Assembly (NCBI RefSeq): GCF_024345995.1
Contig: NZ_JAGQCE010000007.1
Span: 62,001 to 126,000, forward strand
From: Synechococcus sp. Cruz-7E5
GTDB lineage: Bacteria; Cyanobacteriota; Cyanobacteriia; PCC-6307; Cyanobiaceae
Direction of reading: 5' to 3'
Length of the DNA stretch: 64,000 nucleotides
Numbering within the stretch: position 1 is the stretch's first letter; each line of letters begins with the position of its first letter. The notes beneath the pieces were generated by a model. It was given only the letters and a program-made list of their open reading frames with translations, made no database searches and was not told the DNA's origin. Shown piece by piece: positions 26,208 through 44,514 of the stretch. The position numbers were made by a program, and so were the translations under genes.

Positions 26208-26303
26208 CCAATGTTGCCAACCATAACGGCCATGCCATGAATGGCCACCAAGAGGATGGCCCACTGCATCGACAGGCTTCCATCTGCGGGTGATGGCCAC
26301 CCG

Positions 26304-26585
26304 TCAGGGTCGATCGCGCTCAGATCCGCCCCGTAGCGTGCGCGGGTGGTAGGCCGGATCCGGGTTGGTGGCCTGCAACTGGCGCACCGTCTCAAGGGTG
26401 AGGCCTGCAAAGGCCCCGAAGGCGCAGAAGATACTGAAGAAGATAGCAAACGTGCGCGGACTAACCTCCACCGGCGTGTGGGTCACCACCACATGCAGCA
26501 TCAGTGCCACGGCAGCCCCCAGACCGCTGCCGATCACCCCGGCCAGCAGGATCCGGCTCCCCCGCAGTGGGGCCTGGGGGGCCAT
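26304..26585 (-). CDS. Small two-helix membrane protein of RND module B
   Basis: A 93-residue protein with helices ILLAGVIGSGLGAAVALML and AIFFSIFCAFGAFAGLTLE. Its ATG shares a base with the stop of the module B pump (TGATG). RILLAGVI, HTPVEVSPRTF and CAFGAFAGLTLETVRQ match the same places in the 96-residue protein of module A. That the pair has been kept behind both pumps argues for a role with the pump, but no function is known. Confidence 0.72.
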   Translation of the reverse strand: MAPQAPLRGSRILLAGVIGSGLGAAVALMLHVVVTHTPVEVSPRTFAIFFSIFCAFGAFAGLTLETVRQLQATNPDPAYHPRTLRGGSERDRP

Positions 26586-29500: not shown

Positions 29501-29899
29501 CTGGTTGACCACCACCCCCGACTGGCGCACTTCTTCGGGCAGTTGGGGCTGGGCCAGGGCCACCCGGTTCTGAACGTTGACCTGGTTGATGTCGCCGTCG
29601 GTACCGCTAGCGAAGGACACCGTGATCGCGCTGGTGCCGTCGGCGGAACTGTTGGAGCTGATGAACTCCATGTTCTGGACGCCGTTGATCTGCTGCTCCA
29701 GCACGGCGGTGACCCCCTGCTCGACGCTGAGGGCATCGGCGCCGTTGTAGCGGGAGGTGACCTGCACGGTGGGCGGGGCGATGTCCGGCAGGTTCTCGAC
29801 CGGCAGCAACGGAATTGCGATCAGCCCGGCAAACACGATCAGCAGGCTGCACACCACGGTGAGCACCGGCCGAACGATGAAGTTGTTAGAAGGTGACAT
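26585..29899 (-). CDS. RND efflux pump inner-membrane subunit, module B (HAE-1 type)
   Basis: A 1104-residue AcrB-like pump, clearly related to the pump of module A along its whole length. Helix 4 shows AAGLVVDDAITVIEDT with both relay aspartates; helix 10-11 shows GLAAKNGILIVDLANQRM and RLRPIIMTAVSSLFGFLPL. The periplasmic docking loop and the GFVPVEDQGYAIG block are present. It has the same extra hydrophobic segment in the central region (YAIAGAVIGAIYGLLLSGG). The C-terminus is Pro/Glu/Gly-rich. It follows its membrane fusion gene by 11 bases. Confidence 0.93.
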   Translation of the reverse strand: MSPSNNFIVRPVLTVVCSLLIVFAGLIAIPLLPVENLPDIAPPTVQVTSRYNGADALSVEQGVTAVLEQQINGVQNMEFISSNSSADGTSAITVSFASGTDGDINQVNVQNRVALAQPQLPEEVRQSGVVVNQASNSILLVANFVSEDPANTFSIETISGLLDQGLTDALRRVRGVGSIAYFGNRQLAIRLWLDPDRLAANNLTSADVVTALSSQNRLVPAGRVGGAPAPDGQQFTFTVQLQGRLRTNEEFGRMILRTTPDGGLIRLSDVGRVELGGESFDVGATDLRGVPSVGLAVYQLTGSNALEVSNGVKEVIETFVATLPPGIRKEIIYDNTDFINASIEGVTGALRDAVLLVVLILFLFLQDWKATMVPGIAIPVALVGTFAFVLAFGFSLNQLTLFGLVLAAGLVVDDAITVIEDTSTKKKEGLSAVAAAMATMNELFGAVIATSLVLFAVFLPVLFFPGATGTIYKQFAATILFAVTISTFNALTFSPMLSALLLARESPPPGRRTYAIAGAVIGAIYGLLLSGGFANPIPLALFGLLGLALGWFTPPIFRGFNRFYAGFERRYDGALAWVLGRRKLVMALLVGGVVLTGVAFNAIPSGFVPVEDQGYAIGFVQAPDGTSVQKTSRVNAQVAEILRTEKDITSAAIFSGASLDGNAPNRGLFFFGTKNWDDRGDADQSVNAIVERLNRKLSVIDGARVFVVEPPSIPGYGASGGFEFQLLDQSGGALNLPQFAGVAGQLIGKANQAQPDGRPLFSRVFTQFSAESPQLAVTVDRDRLATLGLDYGQAMRTFSFYFGGVYVNDTFQEGRVRRVFVQADAPFRATPERLQAIFVTNAKGESVPLAEVITVEPITGPSIIPRFNLFRAIRVEGSAAQGRSSGQAIKGILGLFKGLDVPGIGYDWTGIAREEVSAGALAVVIFALGIMVVYLVLAAQYESYSDPLIILMTVPTAMLGALIFLGARGYELNIYAQVGLVMLIGLAAKNGILIVDLANQRMAAGASALDAARDAARSRLRPIIMTAVSSLFGFLPLVFASGAGARGQSSLGTVVFGGLLVATVLSLLVVPVFYVVVKQLVPPPTPPLPGDGEGVLIEGEGASP

Positions 29900-29910
29900 C
29901 TGGCGATTCC

Positions 29911-31002
29911 CTAGTTCGCCGTCACGGGGGTGCCGTGACGCAGGGTGAGCAGATTGGTCGTGATCACCCGTTCACCGGGTGTCACACCGCGAAGGACCGC
30001 ATAGCGGTTGTTCTGCAGGGGTCCGAGTTGCACCGGGCGCTGCAGTGCGAAGCTGCTCCCCGGCGGCAACTGGCGCAACTGATCCAGGGAGGCCTTGCCC
30101 GGATTCTTCTCCAGATCCTGCAGGGTGCCGAGGGCGAACACGAAGCTCTGGCCAGCCGTCTGGGTGACGGCGGCGAAGGGAACCGACGGCAGATCAGCCG
30201 CATCGAGCTGGACCCGGGTGCGTAAGCGCAGGCCGCTGCGAAGAGCGCCGGTGGGATTATCGAATTCGGCCTTCAACAGCAGGGCCTGGGTGCCGGCATT
30301 CACGACCGGATCCACGGAGCTGACCACGCCGCGGGCCAGCACCTTCGGGGACTGAGGCTCCTGCAGGGTGACCGGCAGGCCGGGCCGCACCCGGGCGGTC
30401 AGCACGCCGGGTACGTCGATGCGGGCGGTGAGGCGGTCATTGCGCACCACCTTGGTGAAGGGATCCCCGGCACTGATCACATCGCCCACCTTCACCTGCA
30501 GATCGCTGATCACCCCATCCGTGGGGGAGCGCAGGTCGCGGAAGGACAGATCGGCCTCCCTGGCCCGCAGGGCCTCCCGCGACTGAACGTACTGGGCGCG
30601 GAACTGATCGCGCTGCAGGGCACTGGCGGCCCCTTGGCGCACAAGGAACTCAAAGCGCTTGTAATTGAGCTCGTCCTTCTCCGCCTGCGCGCGCAGACTG
30701 GCCACATCGGCTCGTACCTGAACCTGATCGAGCACCATCAGCAGCTGACCCTGTCGCACCACATCGCCCTGACGCACCAGCAAGCGCTCGATGCGGCCGC
30801 CGGCCTGGGCCGCCAACTGCACCACGCTGAGAGCCTCTAGGGTGCTGATCGTGTCGACGTCGTCGCTGAAGCGGGCCAGGGCGACCGGTTCGGTCTTGAC
30901 CTGAACCTGTCTGGGCGGCGGCTTGGGGGGATCGCCGCAGCTACTGAGACCAACCGCCAGCAGACCGATTGCGGCCGGGATCACCAGACAGGAACGCTTC
31001 AC
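29911..31002 (-). CDS. RND membrane fusion lipoprotein, module B
   Basis: A 363-residue adaptor. GTG 31002 (MKRSCLVIPAAIGLL) is favoured over TTG 31014 because it gives a tidy signal peptide ending in the lipobox LSSC. Key parts are AQAGGRIERLLVRQGDVV, a helical hairpin, and FRDLRSPTDGVISDLQVKVG. It is the first gene of six in the same direction (module B then module A), and only 96 bases separate the modules. Upstream lies a fragment of rarA, so the promoter may be partly imported. Confidence 0.88.
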   Translation of the reverse strand: MKRSCLVIPAAIGLLAVGLSSCGDPPKPPPRQVQVKTEPVALARFSDDVDTISTLEALSVVQLAAQAGGRIERLLVRQGDVVRQGQLLMVLDQVQVRADVASLRAQAEKDELNYKRFEFLVRQGAASALQRDQFRAQYVQSREALRAREADLSFRDLRSPTDGVISDLQVKVGDVISAGDPFTKVVRNDRLTARIDVPGVLTARVRPGLPVTLQEPQSPKVLARGVVSSVDPVVNAGTQALLLKAEFDNPTGALRSGLRLRTRVQLDAADLPSVPFAAVTQTAGQSFVFALGTLQDLEKNPGKASLDQLRQLPPGSSFALQRPVQLGPLQNNRYAVLRGVTPGERVITTNLLTLRHGTPVTAN

Positions 31003-31100
31003 GCACGGTGACAAGAGTTGTCCGATTCTGCAGGCCCGTGCCTCCTGCTGCAGGTCCTGAGGGTTGATCCCAGGATTGTCCTCATCCCGCCACGCGCGTC

Positions 31101-31287
31101 TTGAGCGATCTGTTCAGCCATCAGGGGGAGATCAACCGCCAGGCGCTTGCCCCCCTGGCCGATCGTCTGCGCCCCGCAGCCTCGAGGAATTCGTGGGTCA
31201 GGAGGAGATTCTCGGCCCCAGGAGGCTGCTGCGGCGGGCGATCCACGCCGATCGGGCGGGCAACCTGATCCTGCACGACCTGCCCAG
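31101..31287 (+). pseudogene. 5' fragment of rarA (duplicate)
   Basis: This stretch repeats the first 60-odd codons of the intact rarA at 42188, including the start region LSDLFSHQGEINRQ. I count about 20 differences over some 185 bases, most at third codon positions. One base is missing near 31176 (CGCCCCGC against CGGCCACGC), so the frame breaks before EEFVGQEEILG. Likeness stops just before the Walker A motif. It is in the same orientation as intact rarA. Confidence 0.88.
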
Positions 31288-31326
31288 CGTCCGCGTTGCC
31301 TTTTGAACCGACACCACACCATCGCC

Positions 31327-32126
31327 ATGACCAACTCCGTCCTTCCGCCGATCGCAGGCGATGAAGCCGGGATCCTCGCCCTGATGCAGCAGGCCGACCT
31401 CGTTTTTCTGCCGCGCATCAATCTCAACCTGGCGCAGATCCGCTCAGGCTTTGCGATCTTCGCGATGCTTCTCTACAAGATTCTGGTGGAGTGGATCCGC
31501 CTCACCCGGCCCAATCTGCTCTCATTTGATCGCAACACCCGCAGCGGCCTGCTCCTGGCGGGCATCTTCGGCTCCTACGCCATCGGCGCCAACGGCATCG
31601 GCAATGTGATGGGCTTTTCGTGGAGGCCTCGCCGTTTCGCGATCTGAGCCTGGGACGCTTCAGCGTCTCGTCGGTGGAGCAGTTGTTTCTGATCGGTGGG
31701 ATTGCCGTGGCGGTGGGTGCCTACACCTATTTCCGCCGGGTGATGATGACCGTGGGCGACGGACTGATGCCCCTCTCGCCGCTGGCCGCTTTCGTGGTCG
31801 TGGTGTCCCATTCGCTGGTGCTTTTCATCTTCTCCTCCACCGCCCTCGAAAGCCTGCTGGCGGGCTGGGTTCTGCCCACGATTCCGCTGCTGCCGGTGTC
31901 TAGGACGCAGGCGGTGATCGGCTCGGTGCTGGGAATTGGTCAGCTGCAGGGCTTTAAGGGGGTGCACCAGATCCGCTGGGGCGTGCTTGTGGGGATCGCT
32001 TCGGGCTGGATAACCACGCCCCTGATCGCGGCGGTGATCGGTTTCGTGCTGCTACTCGTGGTGCAGAACGTGTTCGGCCAGGAGGTCTATTTTTCGGAGA
32101 TTGCAGCAGTTACCTCCCCAGGCTGA
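31327..32126 (+). pseudogene. Truncated, frameshifted PiT-family phosphate transporter
   Basis: Two adjoining frames together read as the second half of a PiT inorganic phosphate transporter. The first (to 31647) ends in FGSYAIGANGIGNVMG, the PiT signature. The second, from about 31620, goes on with VEASPFRDLSLGRFSVSS, then helices and PVSRTQAVIGSVLGIGQLQG and GIASGWITTPLIAAVIGF, the conserved C-terminal half. One base is missing near TTTTCGTGG (31615-31624). The N-terminal half, about 150-200 residues, is absent and replaced by the rarA fragment. It is almost surely non-functional unless the shift is a sequencing error, and even then truncated. Confidence 0.82.
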
Positions 32127-32541
32127 GTGCCCAGCCTGGCTGGCCGTCCAACGGATCCCACAGCTGAGCTGACCGATCACTTGATTGCCCAGGCCGCCAC
32201 GTTTTTCAATAATGTGGGATCCCAAACAATTTGAGAAGGTGCGCTCGTCTAGTCAAAACCCCAATTACTGTTGGCCTTCTTAAACCTTGCAGATCAGCTT
32301 TTCAGTTATGAATGGGAGTTCGATTGCACTCTGGAGAGCCAGGTCGATGCCTAGTGCCGGATGGCGCAATCTTCGAGATTCAAAGAGCCATCAGGTCAGG
32401 TGTTGCCAGAGACAGACTGCTTTCGTGAATTCAGGTTAGTTTGATAGTTGCAAGCTGGGCTTTTTATTTCCCGCTGATTTGATTTCTCGCTGAGTTGATT
32501 CCTGTAATCCTTCCCGTTTTACTCACACGTTTTCTCCAGTC
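32127..32541. other. AT-rich spacer before the P-type ATPase
   Basis: About 415 bases, clearly more AT-rich than the flanks, with no reading frame of note. It should hold the promoter of the ATPase gene. No strong hairpin or clear consensus promoter was picked by eye. Confidence 0.5.
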
Positions 32542-35337
32542 ATGATCACGTCAAGCAGCGCCATTGATCCAGCAGCCCCGCAGGGATCTTCGCAGGCAAT
32601 CCCCTGGCACAGCCTTGATCTCTCCAAGGTGCTTGCTCGTATCGATGTCGATCCAGAGCAGGGCCTCTCCAGTACTCAGGCAACACGGCAACAGGAGCGT
32701 TTTGGAAAGAATGAGCTCAAAGCCAAGCAGGGCCGCTCTCCTTTATGGATGTTTCTGCTTCAGTTCAAGAATCCTCTTCTTTACATCCTGCTCATTGCTG
32801 GTGCCGTGAAGGCCTTCATGGGCTCTTGGATTGAGGCGGGGGTGATCACCGGTGTTGCGGTTCTGAATGCGCTGATCGCCTTCACGCAGGAATCGAAGGC
32901 GGAATCTGCCATCAAGGCCTTGGCCTCTTCGGTCACTACTGAGGCTATGGTGCGCCGCAATGGAGAGATGCAGAAGCTTTCCTCTGTAGAACTGGTGCCA
33001 GGAGATGTGGTGCTGCTGGCTTCTGGTGACAAAGTGCCGGCCGACATTCGTCTTGTAACAAGTCGCAGCCTGCAGATCAATGAATCAGGCCTCACGGGTG
33101 AGTCCGTAGCCGTGGAAAAAGATGCCGATTGCCAGGCCTTAGGTCCGGAAATGCCCCTGGCTGATCGCATCAACATGGCCTATGCAGGCAGCTTCGTCAC
33201 CTTTGGTCAGGCTGAAGGAATCGTCGTTGAAACGGGACAGAGGACGGAGACCGGTCGAATATCCACATTGATGGATGAAAGCAGCGCCCTGACGACACCG
33301 CTTACCCGTAAATTTGAACGCTTCAGCAACCTGTTGCTCAGGGCGATCCTGATAATTGCCATCTTTACCTTCCTTGTCGGCCTGGCCTGGGGGAACACCC
33401 CTTTCGATATGTTTCAGGCCGCCGTCGCCCTTGCCGTGAGCGCGATTCCTGAAGGGTTGCCAGCCGTGGTCACCATCACTCTGGCGATCGGTGTTTCACG
33501 AATGGCGGAGCGCCACGCCATCGTCCGAAATCTTCCGGCAGTGGAAACACTCGGAAGTGCCACAATCATCTGTTCCGACAAGACCGGAACCCTCACCGAA
33601 AATCAGATGACGGTGCAGGCCCTTTATGCCGGCGGTCATCATTATCAATTCACCGGTGATGGTTATGCCCCCAAGGGGGATCTGCTCGATTCCGAAGATG
33701 AACTGATCGAGATCCCCATGATGCCGCTGGCCGTTCGAGACTGTTTGCTAGCTGGTGTGCTCTGCAACGATTCTGTTCTGGCCCATGAAGACAAGACCTG
33801 GAGCATCGTGGGCGATCCAACGGAAGGCGCTCTGCTGGTCTCCGGTCGCAAGGTAGGCCTGGATCGCGCCCAGCTCACAGAATCGCATCCGCGCCTCGAC
33901 AGCATCCCCTTCGAGTCCGAGTATCAATATATGGCCACCTTGAATCAGTTCCCTGAGGATGCTGGTCGCTTCATCTGGATGAAGGGATCCGTCGAATCCC
34001 TGCTCAAGCGCAGTGATTCCTTCCTTGATCAGGAAGGAGGCGTCCATCCGATCAACAAGGAGCGGCTCCAACAGCAGGCCGACCGCATGGCTTCGAAGGG
34101 CCTGCGGGTACTTGCTTTCGCCCAGAAACCCCATGCAGGCAACACGATCGATCACGATGATCTGGCCTCGGGCCTCGTCTTCCTGGGCCTGCAGGGAATG
34201 ATTGACCCGCCGCGCTCCGAAGCCATCCAATCCATCCGGGCCTTCCACAGCGCCGGCGTCGATGTGAAAATGATCACCGGAGATCACAAGGTCACCGCTG
34301 AGGCAATCGCCGATCGCATGAAGCTCAGTCGGCAGGAGATAACCGCGGCCTATAGCGGCCAAGAGCTCTCAGACCTCGAAAAGAACGACTTCGTCAATGC
34401 CGCACTTGAGGGAAGCGTCTTTGCCCGGGTCGTTCCTGAGCAGAAGCTGCGCCTGGTTCAGGCCCTGCAGTCCCGCGGTCACGTCGTTGCCATGACCGGT
34501 GATGGTGTGAATGATGCCCCCGCCTTGAAACAGGCAGATATCGGCATCGCCATGGGGATCACTGGCACGGAAGTGGCGAAAGAAGCGGCGGATATGGTGC
34601 TCACCGACGACAACTTCGCTTCGATCGAAGCGGCCGTGGAGGAAGGCAGGAATGTGTTCCAAAACCTGATGAAGGCGCTGGCTTTCCTGTTGCCGGTCAA
34701 CGGTGGTCTGGCTGCAAGCGTCTTTCTGAGCGTCATGGTTGGACGCGGCCAGTCCCTGCCGATTCAGCCGCTTCAGGTGCTCTGGATCAACATGATCATC
34801 TCGATCACGATGACGATTCCCATCGCGTTCGAGCCCAAGCCCTACGACCTGATGGAGCGCCCGCCCCGCTCTCCCCAGCAGCCCCTGCTGTCGCGACCCC
34901 TGCTCGTAAGGATCGCTTTGATATCCACGCTCAACCTGATCTTCATCTTCGGCGTCTTCGCCTGGATCCGCGATACCAACGGCGATCTGATCCTGGCCCG
35001 CACGATGGCCATCCAGACACTGGTCACAGGCCTGGTGATCTATCTGTTCAGCCTCAGCCAGTTCTGGGCCTCACTGGTCGCACGGCTGCGGGGACGCAAG
35101 GTGGTTCTGGGGAACTTCTCACGCATCGGCTTCGGCATCCTTGCCGCCTTCCTGCTGCAGGTGATGTTCAGTCAGTGGCGCGTGATGAATCTGCTGTTCG
35201 AGACCACGCCGATGAATGCAAACCAATGGCTCGCTTGTTTCGGTCTGGCCACGCCGATGCTGCTGGTGTCCCTGCTCGCCAACCGCTGGCCTGTCAACTG
35301 GGTCCCTCCCCAGCGCACCTTCTCGGGAGCTGGCTGA
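32542..35337 (+). CDS. P-type cation-transporting ATPase (P2, Ca2+/Na+ type)
   Basis: A 931-residue pump with ten predicted helices. The phosphorylation motif is [16 protein letters not shown], the actuator loop [13 protein letters not shown], and the hinge [22 protein letters not shown]. Helix 4 reads [20 protein letters not shown], the PEGLP form of P2 pumps, so calcium or sodium is a more likely cargo than copper or potassium. The N-terminal cation-ATPase domain ([17 protein letters not shown]) is normal. Codon use is more AT-rich than in neighbouring genes, suggesting later arrival. It faces the Mrp antiporter cluster tail to tail, fitting a salt-handling island. Confidence 0.9.
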
Positions 35338-35362
35338 GCCGCACAAAGCTGGCCCTAGCCCC

Positions 35363-36022
35363 TCAGAGCAGGCCCCGATAGCGCACGAACAGCTGCACCA
35401 TCGTCCAGGATCCCAGGGTCACCTTGATGGCCATCAGCACGTTGAGCAGCGGGATCCAGCCGCCGCTCTCCACCGTGCCGAACCCGCCACTCGCTGGCAC
35501 GATGTCCTCCAAGCTGAGCAAGGCAAGGGCGATGAAGGCCAGCACCGCCAGCTTTTCCCACAGATCGGCGTGGACTTTCCTGTAGAACCGATCCGCCAGC
35601 CTTGCCGAGCCGCTGATCACCACCAGGCCGAAGGCCGTGCCGCCCGCCACACCGGCCGCGAAGCCCCCTCCGGGGGTGAGATGGCCCCGCAGCGCCAGCT
35701 CCACCGCCACCATGGCGGCCACAGTTGCGCCGAGTCGGCAGAGCACCACCGAAGCCGTATCGCTCAAGGCCTCGATCTGCCGCTCCGGGCGCGTGTCGCT
35801 GAGCAGCCAGCGCACCCCCAGCGAAGCCAGGGTGAACACCACCACCTCGCCGATGGTGTCGTAGAGGCGGGCCTGCAGGATCACGGCGGAGACCGTGTTC
35901 GGGATGCCGCTCTGACTCACCAGCAGCCTGATCACTTGGGCCGAGTCGACTGGGGTGGCCCTGACGGCGAGCAGGGGAGCCAGGCAGAGGATGAACCCAG
36001 CGATCAGGTAGAGGGGCTTCAA
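35363..36022 (-). CDS. mrpB: Mrp antiporter subunit, MnhB domain
   Basis: A 219-residue membrane protein with about six helices. The block ALRGHLTPGGGFAAGVAGGTAF is the MnhB/MrpB signature, and the DTIGEVVVFTLASLGVRWLL helix before it is the MrpA C-terminal or MbhE-like part often fused in cyanobacteria. It belongs to a Na+/H+ antiporter complex related to respiratory complex I. Its start overlaps the upstream gene by four bases. Last gene of the cluster. Confidence 0.88.
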   Translation of the reverse strand: MKPLYLIAGFILCLAPLLAVRATPVDSAQVIRLLVSQSGIPNTVSAVILQARLYDTIGEVVVFTLASLGVRWLLSDTRPERQIEALSDTASVVLCRLGATVAAMVAVELALRGHLTPGGGFAAGVAGGTAFGLVVISGSARLADRFYRKVHADLWEKLAVLAFIALALLSLEDIVPASGGFGTVESGGWIPLLNVLMAIKVTLGSWTMVQLFVRYRGLL

Positions 36023-36549
36023 GGGTCGGTCTCGTTGCTGAGCGCATCGATCGGGCCGATCTCCCCGCCCCAGTGCTTCCAGCGGCTGGCCCCCTCCAGG
36101 GCCAGCAACTGTTGCCGGAGCTGGTCATTGCGCAGCCGCAGCCTTCGGCTGCCGATCAGCTCACCGTGCAGATCACCGGCCATCCCTGGCTTTGAGGTCC
36201 CCTTCGCAGCCAAGGGCACCAGCTGAAGGCGCAACCGGGCCTGCTTCAGCCAGCTGGCCAGCAGTTCCGCCGCCGCATCTTCCACAGGTTCATCAGTTGG
36301 CACAGCTAGACGCAGCACCATTGAGGAGCGCAGCGCCACGGCGTAGAGGGTGGTGGACAGCAGGGTGCCCACCATCGCCTCGGTGAGGGCCACGTCCGCC
36401 GCCCCCAGCAGGACGTAGACAAGGGCGGCCACCACCCCCAGCACCCCCCGCAGGATCAACACCTGGTACGGGTCGGCTCGGCTCACCAGCATCATGGCCG
36501 TCAACGGCAGCAGTGCCGTGACCGGCAGCAACAAGTAAAGGTCGTTCAC
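36019..36549 (-). CDS. Mrp antiporter subunit, DUF4040 (MrpA C-terminal/MbhD-like)
   Basis: A 176-residue protein starting at GTG 36549 (MNDLYLLLPVTALLPLTAMM); the longer frame runs back through mrpG and mrpF in the wrong frame. The block GVLGVVAALVYVLLGAADVALTEAMVG is DUF4040, which in Bacillus forms part of the very large MrpA. Here, as in other cyanobacteria, it is a separate subunit. The C-terminal 80 residues are charged and predicted cytosolic. It overlaps both neighbours by four bases. Confidence 0.82.
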   Translation of the reverse strand: MNDLYLLLPVTALLPLTAMMLVSRADPYQVLILRGVLGVVAALVYVLLGAADVALTEAMVGTLLSTTLYAVALRSSMVLRLAVPTDEPVEDAAAELLASWLKQARLRLQLVPLAAKGTSKPGMAGDLHGELIGSRRLRLRNDQLRQQLLALEGASRWKHWGGEIGPIDALSNETDP

Positions 36550-36821
36550 TGGGAGCCGCGTCGCGGTCGCGGCTGGGAGCAGGCCGCCAGGACGTAGCCC
36601 ATGATGGTGTTCCAGATCACGAGCATCAGCAGCGCAATGGTCAACAGAGGCCATTCCCGCGGCAGTTTGAGCAGCAGACCCACCAGAACCAGCGCCGAGC
36701 CCATGTTGTCGGCCACCGAGAGGTTGTGCAGCTTGCTCAGGTAGCTGGCCAGCCCGAGCAGGGGCCAGCTTCCCCAGAACCAGAACATCAGGCCCAGACC
36801 GATCAGCAGCAGACTGAGCAC
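36546..36821 (-). CDS. mrpG: Mrp antiporter subunit G
   Basis: A 91-residue protein with three short hydrophobic helices (LLLIGLGLMFWFWGSWPLL, NMGSALVLVGLLLKL, LLTIALLMLVIWNTIMGYVL). SYLSKLHNLSVADNMGSALVL is the MnhG/PhaG pattern. The start GTG 36821 is by family fit; TTG 36827 is also possible. It lies between mrpF and the DUF4040 gene, the standard order. Confidence 0.85.
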   Translation of the reverse strand: MLSLLLIGLGLMFWFWGSWPLLGLASYLSKLHNLSVADNMGSALVLVGLLLKLPREWPLLTIALLMLVIWNTIMGYVLAACSQPRPRRGSQ

Positions 36822-36823
36822 GT

Positions 36824-37072
36824 TCAAGGCTCGCTTCCCCAGAGCAGGTTGGCCAGCAGCATGAGCCCGGCGTTGCCCACACTGAGGATGATGACGCCCA
36901 CCAGGCCAATCATCCAGTCGTCGCGCACCACCGATACCACCAGCATCAACACCGCAACTTTGGTGGAGAGGCTGGTAAGGCCGGCCAGCAAATGCCAGAC
37001 ATCGTTGCTGCGGCCAGCCACGGCGATCGGAATCAGCAGCGCCAACACCATGCAGTACATAAGGGCGGTCAT
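36824..37072 (-). CDS. mrpF: Mrp antiporter subunit F
   Basis: An 82-residue protein of three helices. RSNDVWHLLAGLTSLSTKVAVLML and VVRDDWMIGLVGVIILSVGNAG match MnhF/MrpF, including the acidic pair in the middle. It overlaps mrpE by four bases and is two bases from mrpG, so the cluster is one transcription unit. Confidence 0.88.
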   Translation of the reverse strand: MTALMYCMVLALLIPIAVAGRSNDVWHLLAGLTSLSTKVAVLMLVVSVVRDDWMIGLVGVIILSVGNAGLMLLANLLWGSEP

Positions 37073-37509
37073 GGTTCCAGGGGCTCCGGAGCGACAGGCT
37101 GCTGGTTGGGTTCGAGCCGATGCAGGCGGTAACGGCGACCATCACCGCTCATTCCCAGCACGAGCGTCAGGGGTGTGAAGTTGATCCGGAAGATTTCCAG
37201 GAACACCAACAGTCCGTGGAGGCCCCGCGCCCGGCCCCGCCCCACCGGCTCGCTGGCCGGAGTCTCCACCAGCCGCTCCTGCCCGTGGCGGACCCGCATC
37301 ATGCGGAAGGCTTCGGCGTAGCCCTGGGGAATCACCCGCAGGGTGCGGCCCACTGCTACCGCCAGCTGCCGCGGGGTCAGCCCAGGGCCGCGATGGCTGG
37401 GCAGCAGGAGAGCCACGATCAGGCCGATCGCCAGGTTCACAGGTCGTAGATCGGCGGTCAGCAGGCACCACAGCAGCAGACGGAACGCAATGGTGAGAAA
37501 AGGTGTCAT
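37069..37509 (-). CDS. mrpE: Mrp antiporter subunit E
   Basis: A 146-residue MnhE protein with an N-terminal membrane segment (LLLWCLLTADLRPVNLAIGL) and a cytosolic remainder. The block FLEIFRINFTPLTLVLGM fits the family C-terminal part. A Pro/Arg/Gly-rich insert near residues 75-100 is unusual. It overlaps mrpD and mrpF by four bases each. Confidence 0.86.
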   Translation of the reverse strand: MTPFLTIAFRLLLWCLLTADLRPVNLAIGLIVALLLPSHRGPGLTPRQLAVAVGRTLRVIPQGYAEAFRMMRVRHGQERLVETPASEPVGRGRARGLHGLLVFLEIFRINFTPLTLVLGMSGDGRRYRLHRLEPNQQPVAPEPLEP

Positions 37510-39026
37510 CGGCTCAGCAGCAGCACCAGCGCAGCCCCGACCAGAACGGCGCCGCCGAGCAGATCATCGAAGCCCTCCAGATCGGGCAGACGGTACCCAT
37601 CGTTGCCTGTGGGCCACAGCCGCTGCAGGCCCGCTCCGGCGAGCAGCAGGCCAGCCGACTTGAGCAGGGCATCGGTCATACCCTGGCCGATCAGGGCTTT
37701 CCAGGCCTCCAGGGCCCAGGGGGTGACATTCAGCAGCAGCAGCGCCGTCACCAGCAGCAGTGCCCCCGGCGAGGCGGGTTGCCCCTCCTCCGCCTCGTCG
37801 GCATTGCCGGGCAGGAGCCAGAGGCGGGCATAGACGGCTGCCGTACCCACCGAGAGGAGAAGCAGGGCTATGGGCAGCAAGTCCGCAGCTTGCAGCCCGG
37901 CTTTCGGGCCAGCGAGGGCCACGCTCAGCTGCTCCTTGGCCAGAAAACCGAGCAGGGGGGGGGCCCCGGCGATCGAAAGCGAGGCCAGCAGCAGTGGAGC
38001 CCCGTGCCGCCATGGCAACGCCTGGGCGCGCCAGCCGTCGAGCGAAACCACGGGCAGCCGCGCACTGACCAGGAACAACGCCGCCTTGGCCAGACCGTGG
38101 GCCAGGGCATAGAACCCACCCACGGCCGGCACTAGCAGCACCATGCCCATCTGGGAGATGGTGCTCCAGGCCAGCAGCCGCTCCACCCGGCGTTCGGCCA
38201 GGGCAAAGACCAGGCCCAGCAGGGCACTGGCAAGACCGATCCAGCGCAGCAGGGGGCCCACACTCTCCACCGCCGCCGCGATGCGCAGCAGGGGAGCGAG
38301 ACCGGCGCACACCACTCCGCCAGAGATCAAGGCGGAGACGGCGGCCGGGGACACGGCGTTGGTGCGGGGCAGCCACAGCCCGGAGATGAACACTTCGGCC
38401 TTGGTGAAGAGGGCCACCAGCAGCAGCGCCAGGGCCATGCCACTGCTCTGCTCCAGTCCCTGCAGCGCGAAGCTGCTCTGTTCGCGGTACACGAGCGCCG
38501 CACCGAGCAGGTACAGAAGCATCACGCTGTTGCCGATCAGCAGATAACGCAGACCGATCCAGAGCTGGGGGGGGCGATTGCCCTGCACCAGCAGCAGAAA
38601 GGTGCTGATCCCCACCACCTCCTGAGCCACATAGATGCTGATCAGATCACTGGCCACGATTGCCGAATCGATCCCGCCCTGCAGCAGCAGCAGCAACAGC
38701 AGAAAGGGCTTGTCCGGAGCGCGGCCCCAGCCCTCCAGCAGCACTGCCGCGCTCACCAGGGCCGTCAGCAGGAGCAACGGCGAGGCGAGCTGATCGAGTT
38801 GCAGGCGTACCCCGAACGGCCCGAGCAGGAGCAGATCCGACGGCAGCCAGCCCTGCCAGGCCGCCAGGGCCATCGCCAGCGTGGTGGCCACCACCAAGAG
38901 GATCAGGGGTCGCCCCAGCCGCGGAACCAAGGCCGCCAGGAACGCCGCCAGGAAGGGCAGCAGCAGCCACGCGATAGTCAGGTCCGAACCACTCGGGTTC
39001 CAGGACATCAGGGAAAGGGGAGACAT
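37506..39026 (-). CDS. mrpD: Mrp antiporter subunit D (NuoL/M/N-like)
   Basis: A 506-residue proton-translocating subunit with about fourteen helices. ATG 39026 is chosen because GAGGGG lies six bases upstream. The NADHdh domain shows FTKAEVFISGLWLPRTNAVSP with the key lysine and ERLLAWSTISQMGMVL, both classical. It is the only large antiporter-like subunit in this cluster; other cyanobacteria often have two mrpD copies, so the complex here may be minimal or need a subunit encoded elsewhere. Confidence 0.9.
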   Translation of the reverse strand: MSPLSLMSWNPSGSDLTIAWLLLPFLAAFLAALVPRLGRPLILLVVATTLAMALAAWQGWLPSDLLLLGPFGVRLQLDQLASPLLLLTALVSAAVLLEGWGRAPDKPFLLLLLLLQGGIDSAIVASDLISIYVAQEVVGISTFLLLVQGNRPPQLWIGLRYLLIGNSVMLLYLLGAALVYREQSSFALQGLEQSSGMALALLLVALFTKAEVFISGLWLPRTNAVSPAAVSALISGGVVCAGLAPLLRIAAAVESVGPLLRWIGLASALLGLVFALAERRVERLLAWSTISQMGMVLLVPAVGGFYALAHGLAKAALFLVSARLPVVSLDGWRAQALPWRHGAPLLLASLSIAGAPPLLGFLAKEQLSVALAGPKAGLQAADLLPIALLLLSVGTAAVYARLWLLPGNADEAEEGQPASPGALLLVTALLLLNVTPWALEAWKALIGQGMTDALLKSAGLLLAGAGLQRLWPTGNDGYRLPDLEGFDDLLGGAVLVGAALVLLLSR

Positions 39027-39036
39027 TTTGGGCCCC

Positions 39037-39417
39037 TCAGTCGCGGCCCAACTGATCGAGCCGGCCCGCTTCAAGGCTGGGATCCACGCTGGCCAGACGG
39101 GTGATCGCCACCAGCAGCAGCGCCTGAATCGAGAGGCCTATCACCACAGCGGTGAGGATCACGGCCTGGGGGATCGGATCGGCCCAGTCGTTGTCGCCGG
39201 GAAACACCACACTGCCGTCGAGAATCGGGGTGCGAAAGCCGCCGCGGGCAGAAACGAGCACGAAGAAGGAGATCACCCCGGTGCCCATCACATCCATTCC
39301 CATCACCTTGAGGAAGAGGCTGCGGCGCAGCAGCAGACCCAGCAGGCCCGTGAACACGGTGAGCAGCATCAGCGCCTCCATCACCACAAAGCCATCGATG
39401 GCATCAACGATGGCCAT
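39037..39417 (-). CDS. mrpC: Mrp antiporter subunit C (NuoK-like)
   Basis: A 126-residue protein with three helices. ATG 39417 (MAIVDAIDGFVVMEALML) is preferred to 39447. The block LKVMGMDVMGTGVISFFV and DPIPQAVILTAVVIGLSIQALLL is MnhC/NuoK. It opens the minus-strand mrp cluster, so its promoter lies in 39418-39540. A broken copy of its first 40 codons is found at 41276-41396. Confidence 0.88.
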   Translation of the reverse strand: MAIVDAIDGFVVMEALMLLTVFTGLLGLLLRRSLFLKVMGMDVMGTGVISFFVLVSARGGFRTPILDGSVVFPGDNDWADPIPQAVILTAVVIGLSIQALLLVAITRLASVDPSLEAGRLDQLGRD

Positions 39418-39539
39418 GAATTCCCAGTCATTGCGGAAGATCCTCAATCTATCGAGGACTTCTTCCGCACTGAGCAGCGCACCTCACTGCCAGGGTCTCT
39501 CCTTCACAACCTTGTCCCACCGAAATGGGACGGATGAAG

Positions 39540-39870
39540 CGCTGACCCCCCTGGCCAGCCAACTCGCCGCCCGCTCCCAAGATCGGCAGAGCGGCTCCTG
39601 GTCAATGGCCGGCTATGGGCAGCCTTCAACGGAAGGTTGGATCCCCTCGATCAGCGCCGGCTGGGGCCACGACCGGTTCGCGTTCACCAGCCATCAGATG
39701 GCGGTGCGGACTCCGGCCTCGCCTTAGAACTGGCCACTCGGATCCGTCTGCGCGATATCTTCAGCGTCACGCCTGCCCTGCACTGGCTCACCCTGCGTTC
39801 GCCGCAAACGGACCATTCCGCCAGCCTCAGCGTGTGGGCCGCGCTGCTTCGCGCCAACCGTTGCTTCTGA
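39540..39870 (+). pseudogene. Remnant of an OprB/Som-type porin C-terminus
   Basis: Two overlapping frames look like the end of a cyanobacterial carbohydrate-selective porin. Frame 2 gives WSMAGYGQPSTEGWIPSISAGWG up to a stop at 39727. Frame 1 then gives LALELATRIRLRDIFSVTPALHWL and ends LSVWAALLRANRCF at 39870, close to the usual porin ending with a terminal Phe. No porin N-terminus or SLH domain is nearby. Hence it is a decayed tail with at least one frameshift. The family call rests on pattern memory of the C-terminal strands. Confidence 0.55.
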
Positions 39871-39924
39871 TCGCGTGGAGTAAGCTCCCTGCCAACAGGT
39901 TCGTTTCCACCCAGCTCACCGAAG

Positions 39925-41145
39925 ATGAACGTTGTGGATGGAACGATTGAGGTGCAGTCGTTCCTTACGGTGACCCTGGGGATTCTCGTTCTTTTCCTCG
40001 GTAAGAATCTCAACAGTCGCTTCCGATTCCTACGGGAATTCACCATTCCGGAGCCCGTAAGTGGCGGCCTGCTGGTGGCTCTGCTGATCACCCTGCTGCA
40101 TTTCGCCTTCGGATTTGAGATCAACTTCGGCATGCGGGCCCGTGATGTGCTGCTCGTTTACTTCTTCACCACGGTGGGCATGAATGCCAGCTTCGCCGAC
40201 CTGCGCCGTGGTGGCCGCTCCCTGGTGGTCCTGCTGGTGCTGAGCATCGTGCTGATGGTGGCGCAGAACCTGCTGGGAATCGGCCTGGCCCGCTGGAGTG
40301 GATTGCCGGCCGCCACCGGACTGCTGGTCGGCACGGTGTCGTTGATCGGCGGCCATGGCACCACCATCGCCTGGGCTCCGAAGTTCGCCTCCGGACACGG
40401 CGTGGCCAACGCCCTGGAGCTCGGCATTGCGGCCGCCACCTTCGGCCTGATCATCGCCAGTGCCACTGGAGGACCCATCGCCCAATACCTGATCCGCCGC
40501 CACCGTCTGGCAACTCCCGGCTCCGAGGAGACGCCCGTGCAGGCAAGCCCGAGGGGCGGCGGGGAGGTGATGGGTCACCTCGATTTTCTGGGAGCGGTGC
40601 TGGCGATCAACATCTGCATCATCCTCGGCTCGATTCTGCAGAAGCTGATGCGCGACCTCGGGCTGTTCCTGCCATTGTTCGTGCCCTGCCTGATCGTGGG
40701 CATCCTGCTCAGCAACCTGCTGCCCAGGCAAGGGCCGAAGGCAGGGTTCCGCTGGCCCTCCAGAACACCGGCCCTGGACCTGATCGCCGAGATCTCACTC
40801 GGGGCGTTCCTGGCGATGTCCCTGATGGCCTTGCAGTTCTGGACGCTGGTGGATCTGGCGGGGCCCCTGCTGCTGATCCTGATCGCCCAGTTCCTGCTGG
40901 CCCTGGTGATCAATCTTTTCTTGGTGTTTCCGCTGCTCGGTGGCACCTACGACGCCGCTGTGATCGCCGCGGGCTTCGGCGGCATCTCGCTGGGCTCCAC
41001 CCCCACCGCCATGGCCAACATGACGGCGGTGACCCAACGATTCGGGCCTTCGTACAAGGCCTTCATCGTGCTGCCGCTGGTGTCGGCGTTCCTCATCGAT
41101 CTGTTCAACGCCGTGCTGATCCCCTTCTTTCTGCGCCGCCTCTGA
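39925..41145 (+). CDS. gltS: Sodium/glutamate symporter GltS
   Basis: A 406-residue secondary carrier with two inverted five-helix repeats. The re-entrant loop signatures are GTVSLIGGHGTTIAWAP in the first half and AAGFGGISLGSTPTAMANM in the second. It takes up glutamate with Na+. FTIPEPVSGGLLVALL near the start is the usual ESS family opening. Placed between an Na+/H+ antiporter and a porin remnant, it fits a sodium-using, salt-related gene group. Confidence 0.93.
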   Translation: MNVVDGTIEVQSFLTVTLGILVLFLGKNLNSRFRFLREFTIPEPVSGGLLVALLITLLHFAFGFEINFGMRARDVLLVYFFTTVGMNASFADLRRGGRSLVVLLVLSIVLMVAQNLLGIGLARWSGLPAATGLLVGTVSLIGGHGTTIAWAPKFASGHGVANALELGIAAATFGLIIASATGGPIAQYLIRRHRLATPGSEETPVQASPRGGGEVMGHLDFLGAVLAINICIILGSILQKLMRDLGLFLPLFVPCLIVGILLSNLLPRQGPKAGFRWPSRTPALDLIAEISLGAFLAMSLMALQFWTLVDLAGPLLLILIAQFLLALVINLFLVFPLLGGTYDAAVIAAGFGGISLGSTPTAMANMTAVTQRFGPSYKAFIVLPLVSAFLIDLFNAVLIPFFLRRL

Positions 41146-41541
41146 GCCTGCCGCCGCCATCCGGCGCTGCCTTCAGCGGCTCAGCCACCCCCGGCCATCG
41201 GCGTCGCTCTCCACCCGTGGGGCGATCACGCAGATCTCAGGTTCGCTCTAGGTTGTTGGCGCCGCCCAGCCCCAGTCCCCATCACCTTGAGGAAGAGGCT
41301 GCGGCGCAGCAGCAGACCCACCAGGCCCGTGAACACGGTGATCAGCAGCAATGCCTCCATCACCCGAAAGCCATCAATGGCACCAACGATGACCATGGAG
41401 TAGCAGACACTGCCAAGAAGCCGGCACGTACGGGGCCTTGATTCGCTACCAAGCCACCCAGCGCGTCAATCTCAGACCATGACGGGGAAGGCACGGCAAC
41501 TTTTCCCTTGCCTACGTTGCCAAGGATGTGTCCAGGGTCTT
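41146..41541. other. Spacer with mrpC debris
   Basis: Nearly 400 bases between gltS and the DUF308 gene. Apart from the mrpC fragment at 41276-41396 there is no recognisable gene. The remainder gives only short frames. Confidence 0.55.
41276..41396 (-). pseudogene. 5' fragment of mrpC (duplicate)
   Basis: The minus strand reads MVIVGAIDGFRVMEALLL, then continues as the first 40 codons of mrpC up to LFLKVMG, where likeness ends abruptly. It keeps the start codon but has no stop of its own. It is in the same orientation as intact mrpC 2 kb to the left. Differences are few and mostly silent, so the copy is fairly recent. Confidence 0.88.
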
Positions 41542-42171
41542 ATGCCTTCCGGCGCCACCTTCAACTCTCCCGACGCGGAGGATTCCTCGTGCCTTCCCCT
41601 GGATCGCACAGCGGCCGAAGCGGGCCGGCTCCAGGGCCTCACCCAGGCCGAGGGAATCATCATGATCGTGCTGGGGCTTCTGGCCCTCAGCTTTCCTGTG
41701 GTGGCTTCAGCCTCCGTCACCGTGATGGTGGCGATCGCCTTCCTGGTGGGGGGCCTCATGGGCTGGATCGACAACCTCTCCAGGGCCCGACGCCTCGGCC
41801 GCTGGCACTGCTTCTGGAGGCTGGTGGTGTCCACCCTCTTCCTGGTCACCGGCATCTGGATGCTGCTGCAATTCAAATCCGGGGTGGTTCCTGCCGCCCT
41901 GCAGGTGAAGGCGCTGGCCACAGCACTCGGCCTGGTGTTCCTTGTGGAGGGGGGCGTGATGGCGATCGTCTCCCTCACCCACCGCACCACCAGGGGCTGG
42001 GGATGGGGGCTGGCCAACGGCATCGTCACCCTCGCTCTTGGCTTGCTGATCCTGACGATGAGCCCGGCCAGCCTGCTCTCGGTGATCGGTCTGCTGGTGG
42101 GTATCAGCTTCCTGTTCAGCGGGTTTGACCTGCTGGCCTTCAGCTCCCGCTTCCATCCACGGGTGGAGTGA
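41542..42171 (+). CDS. DUF308/HdeD-family membrane protein
   Basis: A 209-residue protein with six helices in three pairs, each a DUF308 repeat: GIIMIVLGLLALSFPVVAS, then RLVVSTLFLVTGIWMLLQF, then GLANGIVTLALGLLILTMSP. HdeD proteins are tied to acid resistance in enterobacteria; the role in cyanobacteria is unknown. Start ATG 41542 is chosen over 41479 since the added 21 residues look non-coding. It ends 16 bases before rarA. Confidence 0.82.
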   Translation: MPSGATFNSPDAEDSSCLPLDRTAAEAGRLQGLTQAEGIIMIVLGLLALSFPVVASASVTVMVAIAFLVGGLMGWIDNLSRARRLGRWHCFWRLVVSTLFLVTGIWMLLQFKSGVVPAALQVKALATALGLVFLVEGGVMAIVSLTHRTTRGWGWGLANGIVTLALGLLILTMSPASLLSVIGLLVGISFLFSGFDLLAFSSRFHPRVE

Positions 42172-42187
42172 GCCTGGGCGCGCGACG

Positions 42188-44452
42188 GTGAGTGACCTGT
42201 TCAGCCATCAGGGAGAGATCAACCGTCAGGCGCTCGCACCCCTGGCCGACCGTCTGCGGCCACGCAACCTTGAGGAATTCGTCGGGCAGGAGGAGATCCT
42301 CGGCCCGGGGAGGCTGCTGCGGCGGGCCATCCGCGCCGATCGGGTGGGCAACCTGATCCTGCACGGCCCGCCAGGAGTGGGCAAGACCACCCTGGCGCGG
42401 ATCATCGCCAGCAGCACCCGAGCCCATTTCACCAGCCTCAATGCGGTGCTGGCCGGGGTCAAGGACCTGCGCGTGGAGGTGGAGGCGGCCCGCCAGCGGC
42501 TGGAGCGCCACGGCCTGCGCACCCTGCTGTTCATCGATGAGGTGCATCGCTTCAACGTGGCCCAGCAGGACGCCCTGCTGCCCTGGGTGGAGAACGGCAC
42601 CGTGACTCTGATCGGAGCCACCACAGAAAACCCCTACTTCGAGGTGAACAAGGCCCTGGTGAGCCGCTCGCGGCTGTTCCGCCTGCAATCGCTTGAGCCC
42701 CGTGATCTGCGGGTGCTGCTGGATCGGGCCCTCACCGACAGAGAGCGCGGCTATGGCGGCCGGTCGGTGGAGCTGAGCCCCGAGGCCGCTGATCACCTGC
42801 TCGATGTGGCGGGCGGTGACGCCCGCAGCCTGCTCAACGCCCTGGAGCTGGCGGTGGAGAGCAGCGCCGCCGATGACACCGGAGTGGTCCGGATCGACCT
42901 GGAGATCGCCGAACAATCGATCCAGCAGCGGGCCGTGCTCTACGACAAGCAGGGGGATGCCCATTTCGACACGATCAGCGCCTTCATCAAGTCGCTGCGG
43001 GGATCCGACCCCGACGCCGCCCTGTTCTGGCTGGCGCGGATGGTGGAGGCCGGTGAGAACCCGCGCTTCATCTTCCGGCGCATGCTGATCTCCGCCGGGG
43101 AAGACATCGGTCTGGCCGACCCCCAGGCGATCGTGGTGGTGGAGGCCTGCGCGTCGGCCTTCGAGCGGGTGGGCTTGCCGGAAGGGCTCTATCCCCTGGC
43201 CCAGGCAGCCCTCTACCTGGCCGGTGCCGAAAAGAGCAACAGCCTGCTGGGGTTCTTTGACGCCCTGAAGAGTGTGCGGGCCACCAACCGCCAGGAGGTG
43301 CCCTCCCACCTGCGCGACGCCAACCGCGATGGGACGGCCTTCGGCGATGGGGTGGGCTATCGCTACCCCCATGCCTACGCCGAGCATTGGGTGGCCCAGA
43401 CCTACCTTCCGGCCGCCCTGCAGGGGGAGGTGTTCTGGTTGCCGGGTCAGCTCGGTTGGGAGGGAGGCCTGCAGAGCCGGCTGCAGCGGCGCCGTGCCGC
43501 CCAGCTGGCTGCCGCGGCCGAGAGCACCGTTGACTCCGGCCCTCTGCTCAGCAGCGGCCCGGGCGACGCGGAGCTGGAGCGCTGGCTGCAACGCCAGGCA
43601 GCAGCGGAGGGGGAGCGGCTCGATCAGCTGCGCCAGCGTTTCTGGCAGGGAGCCGTCTGGAAGCGGCAGGACCGAACCCTGATCCTGGGGGCTCGCTCCC
43701 TGCTCTGGGCCCTGGATCCCCTGGAGAACTGTCCGGAGGGGGGCGTGCTGATCAGCGTTGATACCGCAGCGGATCAACAGCGCCTGCAGGCCCAGAGCCA
43801 GCTGCTCGACAGCCTGCGCAGCCCCCGGCTGCTGCTGCTGGAGCCCACAAGACCAGAGAGCCTGAGCGAAGTGATGGAACCAGGCGAGCGCTTCGAGTGG
43901 CTGGTGGGGCGTTCGCCCTTCCAGGGACAGCCGCCTGCGGTTTGGCATCAGTGGCTGGAGGAGCTGGATCGGCTGGCCAGCCCCAGGGCGCAGTGGCGCC
44001 TGCTGCTGAGTTGGCCGTTGCTTGGTCCCGCCGGGGCGCTGGCGGAACTGCTGAGCAGGCCTGGGGGCTCAGGTGCTGCCCTGGCCGACGCGACCTTGCC
44101 TGAACTGCTGCAGCGGGTCAGCCGCGAAGAAGAAGCCTGGCTCACGCCAGTGCCAGGCTCAGCCGAGTTGACGGCAGCTCTGGAGGCGCTGAACTGGCAG
44201 GTGGAGCTCGAGAGCTGGCAGGAATCGCTGACCCTGGAGCTGAGCGAGATCACCTGCCAGAGGTGGTTCGGCCCGGGTGCGGCCTACCGAAGCCGGCTTG
44301 AGGCCGTGATCAACGGTGCGGAAATCGCCAGGATGGAAGCTGGGTTCCGAAGTCAGATCAGGGTGTTGCTGCCCCAGCGACTGGGCCACCAACGCCTGAT
44401 CGCCCACCGCTTGAAATCTCAGCGGACGGGGCCAGCCAGGGCCAGCCCATGA
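42188..44452 (+). CDS. rarA: RarA/MgsA-type AAA ATPase fused to a C-terminal domain of unknown function
   Basis: A 754-residue protein starting at GTG (MSDLFSHQGEINRQALAPLA). Residues 1-430 are RarA: Walker A HGPPGVGKTT, Walker B FIDEVHRFN, sensor 1 IGATTENPYF, and the tetramer domain from about 250 with DAALFWLARMVEAGENPRFI and SAGEDIGLADPQ. RarA acts at stalled replication forks with SSB. After about residue 445 comes a 300-residue extension (from LDQLRQRFWQGAVWKRQDRT) that looks like a worn class I methyltransferase-type fold but shows no clear SAM loop. This fusion is known from marine and freshwater Synechococcus. Its first 60 codons are repeated at 31101. Confidence 0.9.
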   Translation: MSDLFSHQGEINRQALAPLADRLRPRNLEEFVGQEEILGPGRLLRRAIRADRVGNLILHGPPGVGKTTLARIIASSTRAHFTSLNAVLAGVKDLRVEVEAARQRLERHGLRTLLFIDEVHRFNVAQQDALLPWVENGTVTLIGATTENPYFEVNKALVSRSRLFRLQSLEPRDLRVLLDRALTDRERGYGGRSVELSPEAADHLLDVAGGDARSLLNALELAVESSAADDTGVVRIDLEIAEQSIQQRAVLYDKQGDAHFDTISAFIKSLRGSDPDAALFWLARMVEAGENPRFIFRRMLISAGEDIGLADPQAIVVVEACASAFERVGLPEGLYPLAQAALYLAGAEKSNSLLGFFDALKSVRATNRQEVPSHLRDANRDGTAFGDGVGYRYPHAYAEHWVAQTYLPAALQGEVFWLPGQLGWEGGLQSRLQRRRAAQLAAAAESTVDSGPLLSSGPGDAELERWLQRQAAAEGERLDQLRQRFWQGAVWKRQDRTLILGARSLLWALDPLENCPEGGVLISVDTAADQQRLQAQSQLLDSLRSPRLLLLEPTRPESLSEVMEPGERFEWLVGRSPFQGQPPAVWHQWLEELDRLASPRAQWRLLLSWPLLGPAGALAELLSRPGGSGAALADATLPELLQRVSREEEAWLTPVPGSAELTAALEALNWQVELESWQESLTLELSEITCQRWFGPGAAYRSRLEAVINGAEIARMEAGFRSQIRVLLPQRLGHQRLIAHRLKSQRTGPARASP

Positions 44453-44476
44453 AAAAACCCCGGCTTTGCCGGGGTT
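44452..44476 (-). terminator. Intrinsic terminator of the DUF1400 gene
   Basis: AACCCCGG, five-base loop, CCGGGGTT. Read on the minus strand it is followed by six T, so it ends the minus-strand gene; on the plus strand it starts at the last base of rarA without a T-run. Confidence 0.88.
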
Positions 44477-44514
44477 GAGATCAACAATTCCTGGCCGGAA
44501 CCAGGAAGTGATTG

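Follow-up and report, generated by a model that had tools for sequence, protein, structure and literature searches.

An 11-kb block of ion-transport genes, whose closest relatives lie in a neighbouring genus, has settled beside the DNA-repair gene rarA in Synechococcus sp. Cruz-7E5, apparently without the enzyme of any mobile element. The stretch of DNA that was analysed (the window, 64,000 nucleotides; contig NZ_JAGQCE010000007.1, positions 62,001 to 126,000, or G000:C29:62001-126000 in our numbering) comes from a genome of 3.16 Mb in 31 contigs. Within it a P-type ATPase gene, an mrp antiporter cluster, gltS and an HdeD-like gene lie between a gene for an HlyD-type adaptor and rarA, and this island is bounded by two direct copies of the start of rarA. 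The island was probably acquired horizontally, with no site-specific recombinase taking part in its capture between HlyD and rarA. Seen directly are both copies of the rarA start, their differing ancestry, the empty site, homologues of the island at the same locus in genomes that we call Cyanobium-type (our label for the genus of G013, G159 and G174), a scrap of a third gene in one junction and a breakpoint inside rarA. The comparison drew on 400 sampled genomes of the family, the window's own included, and on the eight other genomes of its genus (G001-G008). The features that make up the two junctions are as follows.

29911-31014, minus strand: HlyD/RND adaptor gene (Pfam HlyD_D23), the native left neighbour of rarA, which it adjoins in all eight other genomes of the genus
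31102-31284, plus strand: left copy, the first 183 bp of the resident rarA, stranded and frameshifted; colinear with the empty sites and 89% identical to the right copy
31265-31454, plus strand: 190-bp scrap of an unrelated GH57-like gene (upstream region and 5' end), assigned from the Pfam match of the intact gene (intact copy at G000:C23:139126-139316, 91%)
42188-42374, plus strand: right copy, the start of the working rarA, of a lineage unlike the remainder of the gene (difference from G001 13% in this part and 2.5% beyond it; best breakpoint 42374)
42374-44452, plus strand: remainder of rarA, the long cyanobacterial PRK13341 form (PRK13341.1-4 above cut-off), of resident type (groups with G001, bootstrap 99)

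The opening 183 bp of rarA (42189-42372) are duplicated at 31102-31284 in direct orientation with 89% identity (E ~2e-62 in a search of the whole genome). There are 20 mismatches in the 183 aligned bases, of which 14 are silent and at the third codon position and six are replacing, and a one-base gap in the left copy shifts its frame. The direct repeat, its frameshift and the mostly silent changes had been described in the original prediction and are borne out; the left copy had been taken to extend to 31287, and here the repeat itself stands but its end overlaps by about 20 bp with the second scrap (31265-31454). Comparison of the 64-kb window with itself (E at most 1e-8) gave five pairs, and the two that measure 70-500 bp at 80% identity or more, the rarA start and, beyond what the prediction had noted, 39299-39434 with 41278-41413 (88%), are both at the island. 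Four self-pairs, none of this class, came from 400 kb of contig C12 (about 13% of the same genome), so the idea that short local repeats are generally abundant was rejected. The rarA start has one full-length match in each of the eight relatives with an empty site, with an additional 24-bp match in G002 and G003.

In all eight of these relatives an HlyD-type gene lies directly upstream of rarA with no gene between. The prediction had called for a comparison of rarA flanks in relatives and had named the same gene order without an empty site as the result that would count against it; an empty site is what all eight have. The start of the HlyD gene, about 87 bp of intergenic DNA and the left rarA copy form an unbroken alignment to the empty sites (identity of 96% with G003 over 379 bp and of 85-92% with the other seven). 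This colinearity identifies the left copy as the start of the resident rarA, unmoved and still joined to its native upstream DNA; it is the complete rarA that is attached to the island.

The working rarA is a mosaic. The similarity of the window to the Cyanobium-type genomes extends as far as the start codon of rarA, and within the first tens of bases of the gene the sequence is of the genus type. Compared with G001, rarA differs by 13% over its first 185 bases and by 2.5% over the rest of its first 1,200. The breakpoint is best placed at 42374 (interval 42315-42501), none of 1000 permutations gave one as good, and the repeat ends at 42372. In trees the right start groups with G002 (support 72), the remainder of rarA with G001 (99) and the HlyD gene with G003 (83), and the left and right starts do not pair. 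Mostly silent divergence together with separate branches means that each rarA start belonged to a working gene while the two diverged, in separate lineages, before they came together. Descent of both copies from one duplication was dropped because the tree places them apart. Two direct copies 11 kb apart could also arise from a local duplication of rarA within one genome or from an error of assembly; we consider this very improbable, as the copies sit on different branches, with modest support, and carry the differences of genes that worked in separate lineages, while the island and its repeats lie inside a 133-kb contig and, in our judgement, repeats of 89% identity are unlikely to confuse an assembler. 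The start of rarA is now 16 bp past the stop codon of the HdeD gene, its native upstream region having stayed with the left fragment, and rarA may be transcribed together with HdeD. At the far end of the gene, the C-terminal part of the long rarA (44000-44452) is the fastest-changing part, with 70-80% DNA identity to G003-G008 over 44000-44500.

At the left junction the rarA copy does not run straight into the island. The end of its match is overlapped by the scrap of the GH57-like gene, the start of which is also present in G001 and G002 as DNA matches. The scrap was assigned to the clade of the window genome, G001 and G002 because only these align over nearly its whole length. It has 12 private changes in 190 bases, eight of them C to T or G to A, as would be expected of dead DNA. 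The join between rarA and the scrap at CCTGCACG shares 8 bp, or 12 of 13 with the flank; that between the scrap and the interior of a PHO4 transporter gene shares 2 bp, GC. As the scrap is joined into the interior of PHO4, the N-terminal half of this gene has been lost.

Island-type mrpD (84-88%) was found in three other genomes of the 400, G013, G159 and G174, and a scan of contigs gave six loci, these three and three distant antiporter matches (28-31%) that were not used. Island-type ATPase (87-91%) was found in the same three and in G279. In G013 and G159 the same locus reads HlyD, an open reading frame (ORF) that we take to be PhoU-like, PHO4, ATPase, mrp, gltS (in G159), HdeD and rarA. 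G174 contains the island from the ATPase end rightwards until its contig ends, and G279 has kept the ATPase and gltS with most of mrp gone and no HdeD match, as a partly deleted island at the same locus. At third codon positions the window is 50-62% identical to the Cyanobium-type island genomes in the flanks (HlyD, rarA and the four genes to the right) and 62-63% in the RND gene. The values are 68-77% for the ATPase, 76-88% for mrp (short G279 remnants, 64-79%, set apart), 91-96% for gltS and 86-95% for HdeD, where the range of 68-96% from ATPase to HdeD counts matches of at least 136 amino acids. With the ATPase-to-HdeD identities so far above those of the flanks, a gain of the island by horizontal transfer is well supported on sequence grounds.

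The exception is PHO4, which has only 52-55% third-position identity to G013 and G159; its nearest relative among the 201 genomes searched is in another genus (G078, 89% DNA), against 77-78% to the Cyanobium-type island copy. Other genes have other nearest genomes, G013 for the ATPase and G159 for gltS and HdeD, and the gradient of identity across the island suggests more than one transfer. Both parts of what the prediction had offered at rarA, gain or reshuffling, are thus in evidence: the empty site and the closeness of the ATPase-to-HdeD genes to the Cyanobium type speak for gain, and the differing nearest genomes for reshuffling. The occurrence of the island in the Cyanobium-type genus was also surveyed. 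Of 42 genomes searched, 40 had a rarA match, and 30 loci were read over about 1.4 kb upstream of rarA. Island genes were present at four of them, an HdeD-like gene alone at six, an HlyD-type or other adaptor gene directly at 18 and no window protein at two. The island would seem to have been assembled in Cyanobium-type bacteria, and these loci suggest a stepwise build-up with HdeD first, then PHO4-ATPase-mrp and then gltS.

That gene order and locus are shared with Cyanobium-type genomes would also be expected if the island were ancestral here and had been lost from the other eight genomes of the window's genus. We regard this as highly improbable, since the third-position identity from ATPase to HdeD is far above that of the flanks (PHO4, with 52-55%, does not share in this), the island occurs only here and there within the Cyanobium-type genus as well (four of the 30 loci), and vertical inheritance would not yield a stranded rarA start of another lineage.

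The capture of the island can be pictured as follows. The incoming DNA would have held part of PHO4, then the ATPase, mrp, gltS and HdeD genes and the start of a rarA. At one end homologous recombination within the opening few hundred bases of the resident rarA would have given a full rarA with a donor start and a resident remainder. At the other end the DNA would have been joined illegitimately to the resident rarA at about its base 183, with the 190-bp scrap from the start of a different gene caught in the join. Such a join would leave the resident rarA start stranded on the far side as a direct repeat. The wide breakpoint interval implies that at most about 130 bp of the resident rarA, and possibly none, was replaced. 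The two junctions presumably arose in one event. A Cyanobium-type genome as the direct donor was dropped, as rarA takes on the genus type within tens of bases of its start codon and the closest matches of PHO4 are in other genera; since the right rarA start is of the genus type, the immediate donor would rather be an unsampled member of the window's own genus that already had the island. Entry was perhaps by natural transformation. A ComEC-family gene is present in nine of nine genomes of the genus, which permits competence and lends it little weight, the same family matching 10 of 14 controls including E. coli.

No tRNA was found in the window, no Rfam match in 29-45 kb and no recombinase among the island proteins scanned. 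One homologous end and one illegitimate end with no such element is the signature of integration by one-sided homology. A recombinase-driven element with the rarA start as its attachment site would account for a repeat at the 5' end of a gene on either side of an island, and integrases that target the 5' end of a gene are described for dusA (PMC4482086, available in part). Besides the absence of a recombinase and of a tRNA in these scans, however, the repeat is 183 bp long and 11% diverged where it should be short and exact, and no such rarA repeat is present in G013 or G159, at whose left island edge no rarA fragment was found. We therefore give this explanation hardly any credence.

Two forms of the one-sided capture remain, a linear one by homology-facilitated illegitimate recombination (HFIR) and one in which the donor DNA had recircularised and entered by one crossover. 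In the latter, base 183 or so of the donor rarA would have been end-joined through the scrap to PHO4, and the 183-bp start of rarA would have contained the crossover. Such an entry leaves a partial duplication and removes nothing from the resident DNA. The breakpoint in the right copy should then fall no later than base 183, and it is placed at base 185 by the best estimate (interval about 126-312). This form is also the commoner outcome in E. coli, where 56 of 60 recombinants with one-sided homology were partial duplications, according to the part of PMC3240628 available. The interval, on the other hand, also permits a crossover past base 183, as in the linear form, and the exact resident and donor sequences are lacking. 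The circle is therefore a serious candidate that we would place somewhat short of even, as one form of the capture and not as an addition to it.

Several observations weigh against the capture as we have drawn it. The breakpoint interval (42315-42501) is wide, so that the breakpoint may coincide with the repeat's end by accident. Over its first 200 bp rarA is somewhat more variable in general, with an excess (p<0.05) in five of the 28 pairs among G001-G008; the strongest, G001 with G002, is 2.75-fold (p 0.0002), compared with 4.8-fold (p 8e-8) for the window with G001, and the right copy of the window shows an excess (p<0.05) against five of the seven genomes other than G001. The left copy is nearer to G003 (11 differences in 183 bases) than to G001 (15 in 183), yet the rest of rarA is of the G001 type, so the resident start was not simply G001-like. 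A single event predicts equal change in the two stranded pieces, but the scrap has its 12 private changes in 190 bases and the left rarA copy three substitutions and the gap outside the junction overlap. The proposed donor is not among the sampled genomes. PHO4, being nearest to other genera and not to the Cyanobium-type island copy, makes the donor block itself composite. Finally, the locus is mosaic, with HlyD nearest to G003 and the RND gene nearest to G002, which implies several recombination events.

Since direct repeats flank the island, they might act as a working switch, with recombination between them regularly removing it. An island in E. coli is known to be deleted between its short direct repeats independently of RecA (PMC5426353, available in part). 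The longest exact run common to the two rarA copies, though, is 20 bp, and two of the three longest runs are downstream of the frameshift of the left copy, so that many deletion products would have a broken rarA. Excision between the copies, restoring the empty site, is possible, as the prediction had put forward. No deleted form was seen, but reads were not searched for one, and in the genomes compared it would be indistinguishable from a never-occupied site; a regular switch seems to us doubtful in the extreme, if slightly less so than an ancestral island. On the reading that we prefer, the capture of the island from one homologous end, the repeats are a by-product of its entry. The genes that it brought are listed here.

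31453-32126, plus strand: PHO4 transporter gene, N-terminal half missing, frameshift near 31620 (Pfam PHO4 C-terminal match; full-length in G013 and G159; closest 89%, G078)
32542-35337, plus strand: P-type cation ATPase gene, type II (Pfam/NCBIfam; island-type relatives, 87-91% at the amino acid level, in four of the 399 other sampled family genomes)
35363-36022, minus strand: mrpB-type antiporter subunit gene (PRK12567.1-3 above cut-off)
36019-36909, minus strand: mrp/MBH subunit D-type gene (Pfam MbhD; conserved in G013, G159 and G174)
37069-37509, minus strand: probable mrpE-type subunit gene (weak MNHE match, below cut-off; position conserved in G013, G159 and G174)
37506-39074, minus strand: mrpD-type subunit gene (Proton_antipo_M)
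39037-39447, minus strand: mrpC-type subunit gene, complete copy, holding repeat X at 39299-39434 (PRK07375.1-5 above cut-off)
39925-41145, plus strand: gltS, sodium/glutamate symporter gene, a nested insertion (TIGR00210 above cut-off; not between mrpC and HdeD in G013)
41278-41413, minus strand: X', mrpC 5' end left stranded between gltS and HdeD (88% to 39299-39434; 90% to G013 mrpC)
41479-42171, plus strand: HdeD/DUF308 membrane protein gene (Pfam DUF308; 98-99% at the amino acid level to G159 and G174)

The P-type ATPase, mrp cluster (35363-39447) and gltS that had been named between the copies are therefore as stated by Pfam and NCBIfam, with the truncated PHO4 and the HdeD/DUF308 gene in addition. 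That these are ion-linked transporters holds for the proposed "salt island", but "salt" is a label only, as the ATPase is below all ion-specific NCBIfam cut-offs; a role in salt handling is plausible. The HdeD-like protein is below its NCBIfam cut-off, and the ORF at 36824-37072, overlapping the D-type mrp/MBH gene, has no Pfam match. Further, divergent mrpD and gltS genes are carried elsewhere in the genome. The roughly 430 bp between PHO4 and the ATPase (32090-32517) match only the window's own sequence among the loci compared. In the left flank there are two tandem RND permease genes (21814-29899; 73-79% DNA repeats), of which G002, G005 and G008 have only one; the product of the gene at 26585-29899 is 92% identical to that of G002 and 77% to those of G001 and G003, which points to a separate exchange.

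The second repeat of the island tells a similar story for gltS. This gene is absent between mrpC and HdeD in G013 and present there in the window, G174 and G159, with the second mrpC start on its HdeD side; the duplicated stretch of mrpC is 145 bp in G174 and 60 bp in G159. As the insertion and the mrpC repeat are common to the window and the Cyanobium-type genomes, the gltS insertion most likely predates the transfer of the island into the window's genus. As at rarA, the complete gene is attached to the insert, and a copy of its start is stranded where the native upstream DNA lies. A gltS of the island kind (80-86%) is found to the left of the RND pump genes in G176, G320 and G265, and in G386 gltS follows the same left-hand gene before the contig ends. 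G005 has a remnant of island-type gltS to the left of its RND genes (L029:12989-13208, 81% over 172 bp). It may be that gltS has moved within the neighbourhood.

Operon-sized gains without an evident mobile element are often inferred from gene content alone; here the join itself is readable, in a stranded resident gene start, a scrap joined by microhomology and a homologous breakpoint in a working gene. The nested gltS of the Cyanobium-type genomes is built in the same way, so genomes could be searched for captures without a recombinase by looking for stranded gene starts. It is tempting to suggest that picocyanobacteria repeatedly capture gene blocks by such a route, stranding resident 5' ends, though at present we think this unlikely. 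The rarA fragment, the GH57-like gene start and the mrpC fragment measure 136-190 bp, and each of the three covers or abuts on the start of a gene. Were the idea general, stranded scraps would be a readable fossil of each capture and might reflect single-stranded DNA exposed at transcription starts. The 5' position of the rarA and mrpC fragments follows from the geometry, however, which leaves the GH57 scrap as the only independent evidence, and no more local repeats of this class turned up in the 400 kb sampled from the same genome.

The island differs from those placed by integrases in that no recombinase was found among the scanned proteins and no tRNA in the window, and in that its repeats are 89% identical and not exact. 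In short-patch double illegitimate recombination a short piece from elsewhere in the genome is inserted at microhomologies. The 190-bp GH57 scrap resembles such a patch, though those patches are shorter and stand alone, whereas the scrap lies inside the junction of a large insertion. A search of the literature, limited and no proof of absence, found no rarA island in cyanobacteria and no templated scrap in bacteria.

Four comparisons follow, from sources that were available in part. In Helicobacter pylori an 'insertion with long target duplication' (Nobusato et al. 2000; described in PMC1643837 and PMC4978471) likewise places an insert between long direct duplications that are duplicated in one genome only, as the 183 bp are here, single in the eight empty-site relatives. 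There the inserts are often associated with restriction-modification genes; here the genes serve ion transport, the copies differ by 11%, and they differ in ancestry too, lying on different branches of the genus (support 72) where an origin from one resident target, as we understand the definition, would place them together. The orphan immunity gene arrays of the Vibrio type VI secretion system, which their authors explain by a process akin to HFIR (PMC5361080), also have parts of resident genes left beside a new insert, but immunity genes or the 3' part of an effector are displaced there, and a 5' fragment without evident function here. The partial duplications of E. coli (109-950 bp in the 14 sequenced, from a single crossover with a circular molecule; PMC3240628) share with the 183 bp at rarA a homologous locus duplicated beside the insert; they were made with a laboratory plasmid, and the available part of the report mentions no scrap from elsewhere. 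HFIR itself is known in S. pneumoniae, A. baylyi, P. stutzeri and E. coli, with one homologous end and one illegitimate end mostly at 3-10 bp of shared sequence (PMC3240628). The switch within rarA at 42374 corresponds to the homologous end and the joins with 8 bp and 2 bp in common to the illegitimate one, but HFIR generally deletes resident DNA of similar size, whereas the window has two copies of the rarA start and, within the join, a scrap from a third source. The capture at rarA is thus an event of a known kind that is unusually readable, and its mechanism is more specific than the original prediction had proposed.

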